From positions 1 to 63,855 of IMG/VR virus record IMGVR_UViG_3300022698_000087: 63,855 nt of DNA; one strand, given 5' to 3'. A program made the translations under genes and the position numbers. The DNA is from a virus. Below the pieces are notes generated by a model. The model was not told the origin of the DNA. It worked only from the letters and a program-made list of their open reading frames with translations, and made no database searches. This document shows positions 8,251 through 59,151 of this stretch, piece after piece; the first letter of the stretch is position 1; every line of letters begins with the position of its first letter.

Positions 8251-9066
8251 TTAAAGAATGTCCAGAATCTCCTGGTCGAGATCCAGAACAGATTCGGCAT
8301 ATCCTATAACAGCACAATCAACAAGCCATTCTACATTGATGCCGACAAGTTTTCCATCTAGAAACATCGGGCCCCCACTGCATCCTGGAAAGGATAGCCC
8401 CTGATACAGAATGTAATTCTGGTTGTTTGTGTCTTTTTCATTTGACACCCGGCCCCACGTCATGATAAAATGCTGCTTCCACAAGTGCCCAGGAGGACAT
8501 CCAAAACAAATGATCTTTTCCCCAAGGTCCGGCCGTTTCATCGTCAGGTCCGCCCACACATCGCTAGAGCCGTCTATAATGACGGCCGCTAGATCATTGT
8601 CCGTGTCAAGCACGACTCGGACAATGTTCCACGTCTGGCCAGTGTATGCCGTCACAGCTCCAATTCCCCCGATGGTGAATAGCTTGGCCACATGTCTTGC
8701 CGTCAGCACAACATTATCGGACACAAATACTCCTGAGCCCATACCACCACCAAAGGCAGTCTCTATTCTAATAGAGACACACGGCCCTCGCAGCTGCTCG
8801 TATGTCAACCCGCCGTATCCATCGTCCGATAAAGAGTCCAACCCACCCTTTAGAGAGTCCAACCCACCCTTTAGAGAGTCCAACCCACCCTCTATGTCCT
8901 TCAAAGCGTGAAAGCTGGATAGGGCCCACTGGCGAGCGTTGTGGGATCGAAACTCGTTCTGGCTAGTTCTGATCTTCAGTTCCTTGACGTCTGCCTCCTG
9001 CCACGATGCCATCACCACCAGCAATCCCAGTACCAGTGTAATCAGAATGTTTGTTGCGGTCCTCAT
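8251..9066 (-). CDS. Membrane-anchored or exported trypsin-like serine protease, 271 aa
   Basis: The ATG at 9066 follows AGGAGAATTATTG. Residues 1-21 form a signal anchor (ILITLVLGLLVVMA), so the enzyme should work in the periplasm or at the cell surface. The catalytic triad is visible: His125 in TARHVA, Asp158 in DNDLAAV, Ser230 in PGCSGGP. Residues 59-79 are three tandem GGLDSLK repeats encoded by a 21-bp G-rich DNA repeat. A trypsin-fold protease that is not part of the head-maturation set is unusual in a phage; defence, lysis or superinfection roles are possible. Confidence 0.85.
   Translation of the reverse strand: MRTATNILITLVLGLLVVMASWQEADVKELKIRTSQNEFRSHNARQWALSSFHALKDIEGGLDSLKGGLDSLKGGLDSLSDDGYGGLTYEQLRGPCVSIRIETAFGGGMGSGVFVSDNVVLTARHVAKLFTIGGIGAVTAYTGQTWNIVRVVLDTDNDLAAVIIDGSSDVWADLTMKRPDLGEKIICFGCPPGHLWKQHFIMTWGRVSNEKDTNNQNYILYQGLSFPGCSGGPMFLDGKLVGINVEWLVDCAVIGYAESVLDLDQEILDIL
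8833..8893 (-). repeat. Tandem G-rich 21-bp repeat inside the protease gene
   Basis: Three 21-bp units carry AGGGTGGGTTGG on the coding strand and encode GGLDSLK repeats. The same GGGTGGGTTGG core occurs about nine times in non-coding DNA at 57689-57850, so the sequence appears to be maintained as DNA rather than only as protein. Confidence 0.8.
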
Positions 9067-9167
9067 CAATAATTCTCCTCATGTCTTCTGATATAGCTTT
9101 CCTTGTTGACTGCCGCAGCCGTCGCCAATTCATCCACAGAAAGACGACGGCCCTCAGTGACGCCCAC
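9066..9167 (-). CDS. Very small hypothetical protein, 33 aa, GTG start
   Basis: A GTG at 9167 opens 33 codons ending in a TGATG overlap with the protease ATG. The peptide (start GVTEGRRLSVDELATAAAVN) has a normal protein-like composition, unlike the overlapping longer frame. It fills the otherwise unexplained 100-bp gap after 9169-9522. The ribosome site is weak. Confidence 0.4.
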   Translation of the reverse strand: MGVTEGRRLSVDELATAAAVNKESYIRRHEENY

Positions 9168-46884: not shown

Positions 46885-46914
46885 ATTATAACATTTATCG
46901 GACCTGGAAGTCAA
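46885..46914 (-). promoter_or_regulatory. Late promoter TTGACT-18-TATAAT with embedded GTCCGATAA
   Basis: -35 TTGACT (46909-46914) and -10 TATAAT (46885-46890) on the minus strand are 18 bp apart, with GTCCGATAA (46895-46903) in the spacer. It drives the major capsid gene. It overlaps an inverted repeat (46897-46940). Confidence 0.82.
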
Positions 46915-51494: not shown

Positions 51495-51523
51495 ATTATA
51501 GGACATATCGACGCAGAAGTCAA
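51495..51523 (-). promoter_or_regulatory. Late promoter TTGACT-17-TATAAT with embedded GTCCTATAA
   Basis: -35 TTGACT (51518-51523), 17 bp, -10 TATAAT (51495-51500); GTCCTATAA (51496-51504) overlaps the -10 itself. It opens the packaging/head operon with transcription start about 3 nt before the TerS ATG. Confidence 0.88.
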
Positions 51524-54240: not shown

Positions 54241-54552
54241 TTACGCTCCTTTACCTGTTCCGCTGCATCTGGTGCAGGTTGTTTGACCGACGGTTTTTCT
54301 ACCACCACACACCGGACATACGCCCGGCACCAGGACTCGCTTGCTGTCGATGGTCTGACCATCGTTATCCATGAAGAAGACTCGATCCCCGTGGTACAGC
54401 CTGACCTGAATGCCGTGGAACTCATCATCCAGTAGCGGATAGCATTGGAGAACAACGAAATCGTCTCCGGCCTCGTGGTTCTTCCAGACCGCTCTCTCCA
54501 GCTCCATAATCTGCTTGTCATTCCGGTGGTCGTCTTGAATCTTCACAAACAT
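54241..54552 (-). CDS. DnaJ-type zinc finger protein, 103 aa
   Basis: The ATG at 54552 has CAGGAGAATGCAG; a GTG further upstream is less likely. The C terminus has CPVCGGRKTVG...CTRCSGTGKG, matching the DnaJ-type CxxCxGxG zinc finger. The N-terminal part is beta-rich with VRLYHGDRVFFMDNDG. First gene after the promoter 54624-54652. Confidence 0.75.
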   Translation of the reverse strand: MFVKIQDDHRNDKQIMELERAVWKNHEAGDDFVVLQCYPLLDDEFHGIQVRLYHGDRVFFMDNDGQTIDSKRVLVPGVCPVCGGRKTVGQTTCTRCSGTGKGA

Positions 54553-54623
54553 CTGCATTCTCCTGACTATGGTTTCTACTATCTCTACAGGCACTTACCC
54601 ATATATCTCTCATTCATTCCCTA

Positions 54624-54652
54624 ATTCTACCACATTCATGTTCGAGGGTCAA
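54624..54652 (-). promoter_or_regulatory. Promoter TTGACC-17-TAGAAT
   Basis: -35 TTGACC (54647-54652), 17 bp, -10 TAGAAT (54624-54629), minus strand. It lies next to AT-rich DNA and the motif array at 54692-55064 and drives the operon ending at 51531. Confidence 0.8.
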
Positions 54653-54691
54653 TGGCTATTTTATAAAATAATTGTGGATAGAGAATATCCA

Positions 54692-55064
54692 TTATAGGAC
54701 TTTTGGGGTTGGTTGATTTTTTTGAAATTTTGAAACTCAAAACCTCACGCAGTGGTGACGGGTGCCAGGAAGGGGCGTCCGATAATTCATGGGGGGAAAG
54801 GCCCCTATACCCGTTATTATCGGACCATAAATCCTCGATCTAATGCAATGAGCGATGATATTATCGGACCACAATGAGTGGCCTCGGTCGATGGTTATAG
54901 GACGTTCGATATTATAGGACGTGTGTTATGGGACGTCGATATTATCGGACGTGGTAGGTCCGATAACAAGGGCACAACATAACCTGTCTTATCGGACGTT
55001 GGTTATAGGACGTGCCAGCTGGCTGGTCCGATAATAAATCACGCACCACCTGGACGTCCGATAA
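54692..55064. repeat. Array of 13 GTCC(G/T/C)ATAA motifs in non-coding DNA
   Basis: Thirteen copies of TTAT(C/A/G)GGAC or its complement occur in 373 bp: nine as TTATxGGAC (54692, 54817, 54861, 54895, 54912, 54926, 54942, 54989, 55003) and four as GTCCGATAA (54777, 54958, 55026, 55056). No convincing ORF. Flanked by an AT-rich stretch (54652-54725), a TGTGGATAG DnaA-box-like 9-mer (54673-54681) and a promoter. Candidate origin, operator array or both. Confidence 0.85.
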
Positions 55065-55086
55065 TAAATTCTGATGGCCAAACGTT

Positions 55087-55121
55087 CGGCCCGCGTTGGT
55101 GGGTTAGTCCAACGCGGGCCG
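55087..55121 (-). terminator. Long perfect hairpin, possible terminator or intercistronic element
   Basis: A 13-bp perfect stem (CGGCCCGCGTTGG with its complement) with a short loop lies between the end of the accessory operon (55152) and the motif array. No U-tract on either strand, so the role is uncertain. Confidence 0.55.
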
Positions 55122-55151
55122 ATGTGAGAAAGGAAGTGCTAAGCCAGTGGA

Positions 55152-55700
55152 TTAGGCTGGCGGATTTGCTTCTTTCACGTGGTTGAATTGATCTTGTTCG
55201 ATGTCAACAGGCTTATCATGAATGTATAGGTGGCCTTGTCCATCTACTTGCACGCTTGCGGATATCAGGCTTTCGACATCGACGAAATCTTCTGGCGTGT
55301 CGCCGTATTCGCTACACGTTAGAGCGTGATCGTGTCCGATCTGGTCTGGATGTTGGCGGTATTTGGGCCATTCACATATACAACCACTGTAGAGATAGTC
55401 GGGCCCATTCGCTCCGGCCGGAGTCTGTTTGTAGTCAAGCCAAACGCAATGGACGCCAAGCACTTCCCGTAAACGTTCCCAAATCACAAGCACCACTTTC
55501 GGGTCTACGTCCGATAAGATGTCAATTCGACATCCTGGCTCTACTCTGTTCATGTTTCCGCGTTTCACGTGAACGCTTGACCACATCGGGGTTACATTCG
55601 TGACAAGCCGATAGCTTGACAGAATAACGGCCGAACGTCTGGCGATTTCCATTGGCAATGTGTTCATTGTCGGAACACTGAGAAATAGTCTACTCTTCAT
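55152..55700 (-). CDS. Hypothetical protein, 182 aa
   Basis: The ATG at 55700 has AAAGGGCAACCC. A possible zinc site is C..C near residues 112-122 with CICEWPKYRQHPDQIGHDH; the C-terminal half is beta-like. It is the last gene of the operon from 57.4 kb. No family is recognised. Confidence 0.7.
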   Translation of the reverse strand: MKSRLFLSVPTMNTLPMEIARRSAVILSSYRLVTNVTPMWSSVHVKRGNMNRVEPGCRIDILSDVDPKVVLVIWERLREVLGVHCVWLDYKQTPAGANGPDYLYSGCICEWPKYRQHPDQIGHDHALTCSEYGDTPEDFVDVESLISASVQVDGQGHLYIHDKPVDIEQDQFNHVKEANPPA

Positions 55701-55748
55701 GGGTTGCCCTTTCTACTGTGGTTTGGTTTCTTGCTATCAAGTGGCCTA

Positions 55749-55771
55749 TGGCGTCCATACGATGGACGCCA
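55749..55771 (-). promoter_or_regulatory. Intercistronic hairpin
   Basis: GGCGTCCAT and ATGGACGCC form a perfect 9-bp stem around ACG, with a flanking GT/AC pair. It lies between genes 55799-56023 and 55152-55700. Confidence 0.6.
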
Positions 55772-55798
55772 CAAGGCACACGATAGAAAGGGATTTGT

Positions 55799-56023
55799 CT
55801 AGGCGTCAAGCCACGAATCGATAACGCTCTTGGCTTGCGTCTTGTTGTCGAATTTGCCCATGAATTCGTCGGCCGAATTCCAGACGACACACATAATGCC
55901 ATCGTCCAACGTGTATCCACGGTAGGACTCAGAATCCGGGCAATTGTCTTTCATGAATTCGCCCATTGTTGTTCCAGTCTGGCTTGCGTTCTTGGCGTCG
56001 AAATCTGTTCTGTAATCGTCCAT
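55799..56023 (-). CDS. Small acidic protein, 74 aa
   Basis: The ATG at 56023 has AAAGGGTGTAACA; frames opening further upstream cross the promoter at 56125-56152. MDDYRTDFDAKNASQTGTTM suggests a soluble acidic protein. No family is recognised. Confidence 0.7.
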   Translation of the reverse strand: MDDYRTDFDAKNASQTGTTMGEFMKDNCPDSESYRGYTLDDGIMCVVWNSADEFMGKFDNKTQAKSVIDSWLDA

Positions 56024-56124
56024 TGTTACACCCTTTCTCACATTAGGCAAATCAAAGTTGCTAACACTAGAAACCCCATTTGCCTTGCCGATATGTTGTT
56101 GAATATCATTGTTCCCATACTTAT

Positions 56125-56152
56125 AGTATAATGCACACTTGGAAAGATGCAA
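56125..56152 (-). promoter_or_regulatory. Promoter TTGCAT-16-TATACT
   Basis: -35 TTGCAT (56147-56152) and -10 TATACT (56125-56130), spacing 16, minus strand; TTTGCA with 17 bp is the alternative register. It drives 55799-56023 and 55152-55700. It belongs to the TTGCAT-type set. Confidence 0.7.
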
Positions 56153-56160
56153 ACGGAAAA

Positions 56161-56403
56161 TCAGATTTTTCCAGACATTACGGCTGCATATTCAATGAAA
56201 TTACGTTTGTGATAGTGTAGGGCAAGCCGATACATGGCTTTACGTGCAAGCCTTGTGTAGCTATGTGGTTTCATCCTATCAAAGAACATTCGGCACACTT
56301 GACGATTTGACGTCCCAACGTGAACACGTCCCATAAACCATTCAACCATCGGAGCATTCGCCTTGACCGTCTCTACTGTTATTATCGGACGTTTGTGTTT
56401 CAT
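56161..56403 (-). CDS. Small basic protein, 80 aa
   Basis: The ATG at 56403 has GGAGAGACTGAGCC. Basic and His-rich helical protein (SYTRLARKAMYRLALHYHKRN). The recurring motif at 56382-56390 lies in its first codons (RPIIT). No family is recognised. Confidence 0.65.
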   Translation of the reverse strand: MKHKRPIITVETVKANAPMVEWFMGRVHVGTSNRQVCRMFFDRMKPHSYTRLARKAMYRLALHYHKRNFIEYAAVMSGKI

Positions 56404-56406
56404 GGC

Positions 56407-57027
56407 TCAGTCTCTCCATTCTGGGAATACTGGCGTTTCGCATTTGATTTCGCGATAGACTTGCAAGAACGATCTATCACGTAATCCATTTTTCCGTCTA
56501 ATGGCGTACCATATGACGGCTTGATATCCAGCTGGCGTTGCGTTGCATCGTCTGGCGTCTTGGCGAATCTTGCGTTCAAGTCTGGCGTATATGCTTGGCG
56601 TCAAGGCCTTGTGCTTTATGCCGTACGCTCTACAAATCCAAACGTCAATTGTTACAACGTCCAAATTGCCCTTGAGATTTGCAGCAAATCGAGAAACCTT
56701 AGGGCCATGTATCGGCTTGCGTTGAAAAGATCGGAGCACGTTGTCCAAATGTGCTGGCATTAGCGAGCCAAGCACATCGGCCAATTTCTCTGGCTTGGCG
56801 TCACGATTCAAGTAAGCTTGCATAATCTCTACGGACATTCTCCAATTCTTCTTTACCGATATTCTTGGCGAAGTGCTTGCCAGGATATCGACGAACGTTT
56901 CCCAGTATGGGCCCCATAGACTTTGAATAAGTGCTTTGGAGTCTTGATACCACGTTAACGCCGAATAGTCGATTTCGTCAAGCTTGCATCTAAGACGCAA
57001 GCGAATTTTCTGTTTCTTCTTTGCCAT
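56407..57027 (-). CDS. Hypothetical helical protein, 206 aa
   Basis: Starts MAKKKQKIRLRLRCKLDEID with a basic N terminus. The middle (FAANLKGNLDVVTIDVWICR, then AYGIKHKALTP) resembles a phage family with HhH-like helices, also seen in some actinobacterial phages. The last part holds QAVIWYAIRRKNG. Function unknown. Its start is coupled to 57027-57197. Confidence 0.7.
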   Translation of the reverse strand: MAKKKQKIRLRLRCKLDEIDYSALTWYQDSKALIQSLWGPYWETFVDILASTSPRISVKKNWRMSVEIMQAYLNRDAKPEKLADVLGSLMPAHLDNVLRSFQRKPIHGPKVSRFAANLKGNLDVVTIDVWICRAYGIKHKALTPSIYARLERKIRQDARRCNATPAGYQAVIWYAIRRKNGLRDRSFLQVYREIKCETPVFPEWRD

Positions 57028-57197
57028 TACTTAAGGCCCCCGCTCATAAAGTTTTCCCATTGAATCCGCAAAGCCTTATGGTATTGGCGTTTTGTGAGTC
57101 TTTCACCACATCGGCCACAGTAGTATCTTGATAGGCCAAATCTAGTAGTCCTTAACCCTGGCCGATGATATAGAAATAGGCAAATTAGTCGTTTCAT
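57027..57197 (-). CDS. Small zinc-knuckle protein, 56 aa
   Basis: An ATG at 57197 opens 56 codons ending in TAATG overlap with 56407-57027. The product has YYCGRCGERL, a CxxC pair, with a basic N terminus. Too short to be noticed by length alone, but the overlap and ribosome-like GGGGGCCCACC support it. Confidence 0.65.
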   Translation of the reverse strand: MKRLICLFLYHRPGLRTTRFGLSRYYCGRCGERLTKRQYHKALRIQWENFMSGGLK

Positions 57198-57208
57198 CGG
57201 TGGGCCCC

Positions 57209-57367
57209 CTAGTTGTTCTGCAGAACGCGGATAGTGTCCGCGTATGACTTTTCACAGGCTTTACTTGTTTCGTTGGCCCAACGTCCACAGGAAACCGCAA
57301 GCCATATAAGGAATAGAAACCCCATTCCAACGATTGCCATCTTTGTTATCATTCTTGCGTTGAACAT
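57209..57367 (-). CDS. Small membrane protein, 52 aa
   Basis: The ATG at 57367 has GAAAGGGAAAACCG. Residues 8-27 (KMAIVGMGFLFLIWLAVSCG) form one membrane segment; the rest is hydrophilic. First gene of the operon after the promoter 57408-57436. Function unknown. Confidence 0.7.
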   Translation of the reverse strand: MFNARMITKMAIVGMGFLFLIWLAVSCGRWANETSKACEKSYADTIRVLQNN

Positions 57368-57407
57368 CGGTTTTCCCTTTCTAATGTGGTTTCGTTTCTC
57401 TACTTAC

Positions 57408-57436
57408 AGTATACACAATATGAGCAAGAAAACAAA
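57408..57436 (-). promoter_or_regulatory. Promoter TTTGTT-17-TATACT
   Basis: -10 TATACT (57408-57413) with start region TATACTGTAAGTAG as in the accessory promoters; -35 TTTGTT is poor (57431-57436). It drives the operon 57367-55152. Confidence 0.6.
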
Positions 57437-57455
57437 CATAGACAGAAAAATTCTA

Positions 57456-57484
57456 TTGACGTTTTCCATATAATAGGATACACT
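57456..57484 (+). promoter_or_regulatory. Possible plus-strand promoter TTGACG-17-TACACT
   Basis: TTGACG (57456-57461) and TACACT (57479-57484) on the plus strand are 17 bp apart and point into the second motif array, where no plus-strand gene is visible. If real it would make a non-coding or primer-like transcript. Tentative. Confidence 0.35.
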
Positions 57485-57507
57485 GGAGAAGATGCACCAA
57501 AATAATG

Positions 57508-57659
57508 TTATCGGACTATGGAACCAATATGGTCCGATAATGTCTAATGTTATGGGACCACGGAGGTCACTTGTTATCGGACGTTGGCTGCGTGCATGTT
57601 ATCGGACGTGTGACTGCGGGCAGGTTATCGGACGTGTGACTGCGGGCAGGTTATCGGAC
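57508..57659. repeat. Second array of seven GTCC(G/C)ATAA motifs, partly in 26-bp tandem repeats
   Basis: Copies at 57508, 57550, 57574, 57599, 57625 and 57651 in one orientation and 57532 in the other. The last three are spaced by 26 bp in tandem repeats (ttatcggacgtgtgactgcg core). No gene. Together with the array at 54.7-55.1 kb it brackets the 55.1-57.4 kb operon. Confidence 0.88.
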
Positions 57660-57688
57660 GTGTGACTGTGTTAGATAGACATCAAACA

Positions 57689-57850
57689 CCAACCCACCCT
57701 CTGCAGAAGCCAACCCACCCTTTGACAAGGCCAACCCACCCTCAACCCACCCTTCGCAGGTGCCAACCCGCCCTCTAAGGCCGCGTCCAGAAGCCAACCC
57801 ACCCTCTGCAGGCTCCAACCCACCCTCAACCCACCTTCAATCCGCCCTTG
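57689..57850 (-). repeat. G-rich repeat GGGTGGGTTGG, about nine copies
   Basis: Copies of CCAACCCACCCT or variants on the plus strand, at 57689, 57710, 57731, 57742, 57763, 57794, 57815 and two degenerate copies to about 57850. On the minus strand this gives runs of GGG suitable for G-quadruplex formation. A minus-strand frame (57671-57982) crosses it, but its start lies one base from a -10 and there is no ribosome site. Confidence 0.8.
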
Positions 57851-58135
57851 AAGCTCTGAGGCCCAGAGGAGCACGCAGAGCACGTGTCGCCGGGTATTTG
57901 AGCCCAGTCGGTCGCTATCTGCCAGGGGTAGATCAACTTTGTGATCCAAAGCTTTCAAAAGTGGTTCTTGGTTGTACTCCATAAGTATAGTATTTATATA
58001 CTCTTAACAACTTATCAACAAATACAACATTTATTTAGTCAGTAAGAAACTACAGATCCACCAACAACCTCGCGTGTTCCTGGGCCCTGAAAATCCTCCG
58101 AAGTGAAAACAAAGTGGTAAAAGTTGTCTTCTTGT

Positions 58136-58160
58136 TAAGTCCTTCAACCATAAGCACTTA
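58136..58160. repeat. 25-bp direct repeat, copy 1
   Basis: The 25-bp TAAGTCC...GCACTTA unit occurs here and at 58206-58230, exactly 70 bp apart. It is nearly symmetrical at its ends (TAAGT/ACTTA), and copy 1 lies between AAAGTGGT and ACCACTTT, an inverted pair. Confidence 0.85.
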
Positions 58161-58205
58161 GTCGTCATTACTAAGAACCACTTTTTCAAAAAGCTGTCCA
58201 CTACG

Positions 58206-58230
58206 TAAGTCCTTCAACCATAAGCACTTA
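58206..58230. repeat. 25-bp direct repeat, copy 2
   Basis: Exact second copy of 58136-58160. It may be a binding site pair or RNA element. Located just after a run of ACAATCG-type short repeats. Confidence 0.85.
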
Positions 58231-58256
58231 CATTTTCTCTACTGCACAGCTAGGCA

Positions 58257-58415
58257 AAATACAATCGTCATAATCGTTACAACCATATCTAATCGTCACA
58301 ATCGATACTGAAATAATCACTACAATCGATACAATCGGAAATGCCATAATCCATACAACCGGCACAAATAGAAAAAGACCACCAGTTTGGTAGCCTTTTC
58401 GTAATCGATACAACC
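58257..58415. repeat. Degenerate iterons of about 9-10 bp (ACAATCGAT-like)
   Basis: Units such as atacaatcg, tcataatcg, ttacaacca, tcacaatcg, actacaatcg and atacaatcgg repeat about every 9-10 bp over 150 bp. A small minus-strand frame (58228-58413) with a hydrophobic stretch crosses them but starts with TTG and has no ribosome site. Iteron-like binding sites for a replication or regulatory protein are the better explanation. Confidence 0.6.
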
Positions 58416-58423
58416 GCTACAGA

Positions 58424-58864
58424 TTATATAAACCAGTTCGGAAGCTCCTCCACTTCGCCACTGGCCAGTCCGCGAATGGCCATGAATCCAGATCTAGCAA
58501 CCGTTCGGGGCTTCCGAGACTCCCTGATGGGGGCCTCGGCTTCACATCCCGTCCACGCTCGATCTAGGGCCTGGAGCGTCTTGTACCACACTCTTTTCGT
58601 GTAGCAGTTCATCCAGTACCATCCCTCGCGGTGCCTGAGAGCGTAGCAGCCCTCTGTGACCGGCCACGCGGTCATTTCCGACATCGTATGGCCCCGCTCG
58701 TTGACCAGCTCCAGATCGTCCCACAGGAGGCCCTGCTTGGCCATCATGCCGGAGACCTTCAAGGCCACAATCGCCCGATCTCTGGATTGGTAGCCGAGCA
58801 CGGCTCCTTCCTTCCTCGGACCCGGCGTGAACACGTCGCCACCCTTCATTCTAAGCCACCACAT
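58424..58864 (-). CDS. Hypothetical protein, 146 aa
   Basis: The ATG at 58864 is in a TAATG overlap with the upstream stop; ATG eight codons upstream is inside the neighbour. W-rich N terminus, then VALKVSGMMAKQGLLWDDLE and a helical region. The C terminus is acidic (LASGEVEELPNWFI). Last gene before the repeat region. No family is recognised. Confidence 0.7.
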   Translation of the reverse strand: MWWLRMKGGDVFTPGPRKEGAVLGYQSRDRAIVALKVSGMMAKQGLLWDDLELVNERGHTMSEMTAWPVTEGCYALRHREGWYWMNCYTKRVWYKTLQALDRAWTGCEAEAPIRESRKPRTVARSGFMAIRGLASGEVEELPNWFI

Positions 58865-59151
58865 TAGGCATCTCCAGACCAAACACATTTGATATTTGAT
58901 ACGGGCACATCTTCGTCAATCCACCATGCGTTCCCAAACTTGTTGTGATGGTCAGGAAGCTTGTGACAATTGTTGGGGCTGTATCCGTGAACCGAATAAA
59001 TCACCCTACGTTGAACCTTGATAGCCCAAGCCATCGCGGCGGTTATGGAGTCGAAGCCGCGTACAGGCTTTAGTATTGCGTCGGTTTTTCGATACCTCCA
59101 AGCTAATTTACCTGTAGCTACATGGTACAGTGTTAGCGGTTTGCCGTCCAT
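58864..59151 (-). CDS. Hypothetical protein, 95 aa
   Basis: The ATG at 59151 has GAAGAGGAGACGAT. Contains YHVATGKLAWRYRKTDAILK and several His (HKLPDHHNKFG), perhaps a metal site. It overlaps the HNH gene end. No family is recognised. Confidence 0.7.
   Translation of the reverse strand: MDGKPLTLYHVATGKLAWRYRKTDAILKPVRGFDSITAAMAWAIKVQRRVIYSVHGYSPNNCHKLPDHHNKFGNAWWIDEDVPVSNIKCVWSGDA

Follow-up and report, generated by a model that had tools for sequence, protein, structure and literature searches.

In the TnpI/IRS system of Tn4430, the core of a tyrosine recombinase is accompanied by further copies of its motif as direct repeats, and these influence transcription too. Phage operators normally diverge along with their repressors. 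XerC is not known to act as a transcription factor. The dif sites of XerCD chromosome dimer resolution possess the left arm GTCC[C/G/T]ATAA in Desulfovibrio, Geobacter, Anaeromyxobacter, Myxococcus and Syntrophus (PMC2731167) and IntA of R. etli is stated to use TCCGATAAGCATTACTTATCGGA, likewise with such arms (PMC4928290). Repressors of the mycobacteriophage L5 type are described as monomers on asymmetric sites the orientation of which follows transcription (PMC9283540). The known IMEX named in a review are vibriophages with a dif-like attP (PMC5357621).

The window, the whole stretch of 63,855 nucleotides that was analysed, is an entire IMG/VR record, that of a tailed phage whose genes lie almost all on the minus strand. 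The phage is regarded as YuA-like because its terminase shares 53% identity with the terminase of Pseudomonas phage YuA and Sphaerotilus phage SN1. These two phages, the nearest named relatives checked and intended as positive controls, contain neither TTATCGGAC nor TTATGCGAA. In the window, on the other hand, a 9-bp word is massed in two arrays, which are read here, with a probability of roughly 0.45, as asymmetric TTAT(C>A,G)GGAC sites for one protein with the specificity of XerC, likeliest the host XerC or a close mimic, that would regulate transcription.

Array B and its surroundings

Array B (57508..57659) consists of seven TTAT[C/G]GGAC sites, six on the plus strand (57508, 57550, 57574, 57599, 57625 and 57651) and one on the minus strand (57532). 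A preceding sequence-only reading had counted seven copies of one 9-mer, which holds for the six exact copies of TTATCGGAC, while the seventh, at 57550, is the one-mismatch variant TTATGGGAC and one of the seven lies on the opposite strand. Its placement of three copies in 26-bp tandem repeats is borne out by the last three sites with a period of exactly 26 bp and by Tandem Repeats Finder, which reports a plus-strand repeat of period 26 with 3.7 copies and 94% matches (57573..57668). In the whole window the exact 9-mer is observed 21 times versus 0.35 times expected, a count reached by none of 100 shuffles, and with A, C or G allowed at position 5 there are 31 sites versus a mean of 1.14 and a largest count of 6 in 200 first-order Markov simulations. 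The seven sites in the 152 bp of array B compare to one in the densest 152 bp of any simulation. Within both arrays, position 5 is the sole variable base (four A, two G), with no other one-base variant, and the 21 exact sites of the window are split into 14 on the plus and 7 on the minus strand of a genome transcribed almost wholly from the minus strand.

The operon between the arrays (55152..57367, minus strand) is composed of small genes of no known function, among them a DUF7178/phrog_3842 gene at 56407-57027; some distant relatives of the encoded protein in mycobacteriophage records are annotated 'glycosylase'. With the first gene at 57209-57367 and the last at 55152-55700, array B is situated upstream and array A (54692-55064) past the end of the operon, in agreement with the initial view that array B precedes the operon and that the two arrays bracket it. 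Both arrays surround the same operon also in the relatives G003, G011, G028 and G036, the last two of which agree in the compared array sites and flanks. A candidate promoter TTGTTT-N16-TATACT (57408..57435, minus strand), located between the first gene and array B, has a weak -35 and is absent from the promoter scan list. In G003, G011 and G028 the first operon gene has a TATACT-type promoter at the same place, and array B sits between this promoter and GGGTGGGTTGG-type repeats. Likewise, GGGTGGGTTGG repeats flank array B of the window on its far side (57689..57848, minus strand).

Several other elements have been observed. The GGGTGGGTTGG repeats occur also at 8838-8891 as in-frame GGLDS repeats inside a trypsin-like protease gene (8251-9069), the exact 24-bp repeat AAGTCCTTCAACCATAAGCACTTA is present twice (58137-58160 and 58207-58230) and about nine units of degenerate, iteron-like ATACAATCG/ATACAACCG repeats extend over 58259-58430. 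Downstream of array A, a promoter-like TTGACC-N17-TAGAAT (54624..54652, minus strand) is directed towards the genes below 54600. An Rfam search of 54400-58500 gave no family.

The sequence-only reading had further proposed that the 26-bp period places neighbouring sites on opposite faces of the helix. Neighbouring sites of array B are mostly 24-26 bp apart in the window, and in G028, where one site is TTATTGGAC, the distances are 25, 26 and 25 bp; G003 and G011 have other distances. Spacing is thus loose, 26 bp is not a fixed feature and the half-turn is arithmetic only. Across 27 records, direct site spacings peak at 14-16, 24-26, 30 and 33-34 bp without a clear 10.5-bp periodicity. The interpretation as a protein-binding array bracketing an operon gains from the conservation of the repeats in relatives and far more widely, while its helix-face alternation is not general.

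The dif-like core of array A and sites within promoters

Array A (54692..55064, both strands) comprises 13 TTAT[C/A/G]GGAC sites the order and spacing of which are kept in relatives. The site at 54989 and a TTATGT six bases on constitute a dif-like core ACGTCCGATAA-GACAGG-TTATGTTGTGC (54972..54999, minus strand) with a XerC-type arm, 6 bp and a TTATGT arm which is, however, not followed by NAA. Relative to this core site, array sites are located at -67, -37, -14, 0, 30/31, 47, 63 and 77 in the window and in loci L106 and L240, with positions 30, 63 and 77 missing in L010 and -37 missing in L116. Sites are 90-98% identical across relatives versus 36-70% for the spacers. In L009, the downstream block is displaced by exactly 10 bp, one helical turn; phasing matters in array A rather than in array B. 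This strict architecture is the mark of a putative phased protein complex.

Throughout viral DNA, TTATGT is found at +6 of 9 of 1080 GTCC[C/G/T]ATAA sites, and as six of these nine dif-like cores share the array type of the window, they represent about four independent settings. Other offsets from 0 to 29 have zero to two such sites each except 20 (six sites) and 21 (three sites), an excess attributed to a tandem site that lies some 14 bp upstream. On the XerD side, the arms of the phage cores fit TTATGT only and not TTATGTNAA, with the exception of L111, and enrichment of isolated XerD arms was looked for and not found. As the central hexamers (gacagg, gaccag, tccctg, ttggcg, tcgggg and others) differ mutually and no listed centre equals any centre of 28 dif-like sites of Planctomycetota, integration at the host dif is unlikely.

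Single copies of the word occur also inside promoters. The promoter of the major head gene (phrog_212), TTGACT-N18-TATAAT (46885..46914, minus strand), harbours a 9-mer within its spacer (46895-46903), and in that of the small terminase gene (phrog_4044), TTGACT-N17-TATAAT (51495..51523, minus strand), a 9-mer overlaps the -10 (51496-51504). Both sites point the way of their genes, which, as suggested by gene content, would be late genes. A terminase promoter TTGAC[A/T]-N17-TATAAT with a site over the -10 and a head promoter with a site filling the spacer are common to G000, G003, G013 and G028/G036, the head promoter of G028/G036 having TATGAT and hence standing outside the one-mismatch promoter list. 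Seven records contain 50 promoters that deviate by no more than one mismatch, and 9 of these have the site inside them (G000 2/8, G003 2/9, G013 2/6, G028 1/9, G036 1/5, G039 1/9, G011 0/4). Sites at such places usually act as operators, and the isolated copies within consensus sigma-70 promoters of the YuA-like group are, by their position, candidate operators. In another phage group, group B, a promoter-like block (G001 87966, G004 137728, G007 14377 and G010 15990) has a TTATACAC(A/C) word, resembling a DnaA box, before GTCCGATAA.

The word in other viruses and genomes and its identity with XerC arms

A pattern of three sites has been detected in 63 viral stretches, of which 55 are dispersed with unrelated flanks versus 0 of 11 for the reversed word, and a pattern of two sites in at least 119 viral stretches. 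In 41 records, chosen for holding arrays, the 9-mer by far exceeds the reversed word in, for example, G003 (44 vs 0) and G001 (40 vs 1), and in 15 of the 27 records examined no 9-mer of the analysed sequence is more over-represented, at GC contents from 0.34 to 0.65. The flanks show a preference only for A or G before the word and for GT behind it in the YuA-like group; the preferred 11-mer TTATCGGACGT is the reverse complement of ACGTCCGATAA. Arrays on genome contigs are rare and mostly plain tandem repeats (80 of 82 stretches examined). Seven genome-contig stretches were inspected, four of them labelled Planctomycetota, which, having been picked by eye, constitute weak evidence for a host. 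Among the top literature matches no discussion of the 9-mer as a phage motif was found, and equally the literature matches listed include no report on XerC with phage arrays, regulation, titration or Planctomycetota.

Individual genome records deserve mention. L167 (CP070695.1, about 92-94 kb), on a chromosome labelled Heimdallarchaeota, has 16 TTATNGGAC sites, a group-B phage gene and masked N, and this piece looks viral or misassembled. In G048, a Sedimentisphaerales MAG, 92 scattered TTATCGGAC versus 5 copies of the reversed word represent a possible host regulon or composition effect. At L145, L170 and L206, three to four TTATCGGAC are located between a tRNA or tmRNA gene and an integrase-like gene, resembling integrative elements; Pfam gave no recognition of these three proteins, so that 'integrase' is our own reading. 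Arm-type sites of an integrase were rejected as an explanation, as twelve other loci of the same protein family in eight other Planctomycetota genomes (L324-L335) are without 9-mers.

The reverse complement of the array word, GTCC(G/C/T)ATAA, is the XerC half-site of dif in several Deltaproteobacteria, with the same position free. Furthermore, ACGTCCGATAA is the left arm of dif-like sites in Planctomycetota. With a general dif pattern, 19 sites were obtained in 18 of 199 Planctomycetota genomes, 7 of them with GTCCGATAA. The pattern GTCCNATAA-N6-TTATGTNNA is matched once each in 28 of 294 such genomes and has no match in the other 266; all 28 sites carry GTCCGATAA though the fifth base was left free, and the reversed control gave one match.

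Arrays based on XerC half-sites of other clades are nearly absent from viruses. Three-site arrays of TTATGCGAA, the XerC arm of Pseudomonas and many beta-proteobacteria, amount to 6 in viral contigs, 2 of them dispersed, which is not above the reversed-word control (11, 0 dispersed). A general XerC strategy is consequently not seen and would be confined to hosts with the GTCCNATAA arm; this near-absence counts against the general form of the XerC idea. Arrays of TTATGCGCA in viral contigs amount to 8, mostly from one homologous group with a palindromic word. In another virus group (L357, L359, L360, L361 and L364), small arrays of the palindrome TTATGCGCATAA or its halves have been noticed.

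Candidate binders, competing explanations and known systems

Protein clustering of 27 records found no DNA-binding family common to all array records, which would be expected if the binder is encoded by the host. The widest families are general replication and packaging genes, a dGTP-diphosphohydrolase-like gene and a trypsin-like protease; the latter (Trypsin_2, 8251-9069 in the window, with a hydrophobic N-terminus) occurs in 14 of 27 array records of different phage groups. Profile-profile comparison for a common phage binder covered 1367 of 12011 pairs and brought out only a zinc-ribbon likeness, and the predicted structures of 58424-58888 (mean pLDDT 72) and of a group-B protein (64) had no match at an E value of 0.001 or better. 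A DnaA-type binder was dismissed as well, with the DnaA C-terminal domain over the cut-off in 0 of 41 array records and one hit below threshold. Phage-encoded proteins of no known function could bind the word.

That the phage encodes a repressor of its own which, like that of mycobacteriophage L5, occupies its site (here the 9-mer) as a monomer and shuts down late promoters and elongation, the dif match being convergence, is an alternative considered rather unlikely. It would account for the operator positions in the head and terminase promoters and for an asymmetric site in many copies. It is difficult to reconcile with sites massed on both strands in two arrays, where L5 sites are oriented with transcription, with the lack of a candidate repressor common to the array records and with a word that stays the same in viruses of 32-65% GC among which no common regulators are detectable. 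The dif geometry with a 6-bp centre, the phased flanking sites and the 10-bp block shift, together with Xer-sized recombinases (open frames of 299-308 amino acids) in G001, G004, G007 and G016, would fit with array A as a Xer-type recombination site with accessory half-sites in the style of cer or the IRS of Tn4430, which resolves or integrates phage DNA with array B as a remote accessory cluster; this is improbable, as a PF00589 protein is absent in 36 of 41 array records including G000 and the sites in late promoters are left unexplained.

Iterons of a replication origin, for a phage or host initiator, might be suspected from arrays on both strands beside AT-rich DNA (54650-54740), from the other repeat classes adjoining array B and from the resemblance of TTATNGGAC to the DnaA box TTATNCACA. 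Sites within late promoters, a GC skew without a sign change at the arrays and the DnaA domain count given above render this highly improbable. Chance or a simple, functionless tandem duplication is barely credible: although the 26-bp units of the window are near-identical and most genome-contig matches are plain tandem repeats, shuffles, Markov simulations and the reversed-word control contradict it, and positions have been kept while spacers diverged.

The arrays are very probably functional protein-binding sites. That the putative binder has XerC-type specificity is given a slightly better than even chance and regulation as the main role even odds, while host XerC itself is a guess at the identity of the binder, one that the constant word and the lack of a regulator shared among the phages speak for. 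Recurrence and dif match suggest a control system in which a DNA-binding protein of the host is borrowed or mimicked. A protein with the XerC specificity of Planctomycetota and several Deltaproteobacteria, in a presumed planctomycete host, would bind the 9-bp sites. At the isolated late-promoter sites the bound protein would block RNA polymerase in the role of a repressor on its operator, at array A a phased complex would be built around the dif-like core, and array B as a dense cluster upstream of the early-operon promoter might tune that promoter or soak up protein.

A far-reaching version, distinctly unlikely, is that many unrelated tailed phages of hosts with a GTCCNATAA dif have independently adopted host XerC to hold late promoters early in infection, with the arrays titrating it. 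Replication would multiply the arrays and draw XerC off, and late genes would be turned on once copy number exceeds XerC supply, which, if true, would make the arrays a copy-number timer based on a housekeeping recombinase. It is unusual for a 9-bp regulatory word to stay constant across many uncultured phages that are unrelated. Should the XerC link hold, phage gene control would be tied to the dif/Xer system and a large set of orphan viruses would obtain a sequence-only clue to their hosts, Planctomycetota or former Deltaproteobacteria; if the dif match is convergence, a widespread phage regulator with a fixed site is still to be found.

Among known systems, TnpI/IRS of Tn4430 differs in that G000 is without a detectable tyrosine recombinase. 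The attP of the IMEX CTXphi, TLCphi and VGJphi is similar in that a phage lacking an integrase of its own carries a dif-like site, whereas the core centres of the phages analysed here match no dif centres found and half-site arrays are added. With the operators and stoperators of cluster A mycobacteriophages (L5, TipsytheTRex), the window has in common that a short asymmetric site is present more than 20 times (21 exact copies, or 31 if position 5 is left free), at some places over promoters, but unlike stoperators its sites are gathered in arrays on both strands, the orientation of the exact sites (14 plus, 7 minus) does not follow the L5 pattern and the word is common to unrelated viruses. 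The dif left arm has the same nine-base word, the same variable position and the preferred 2-bp extension, and array A reproduces the ATAA-N6-TTAT geometry of dif; in contrast to dif, the phage carries many half-sites in arrays, mostly without a XerD arm, and places them also in promoters.
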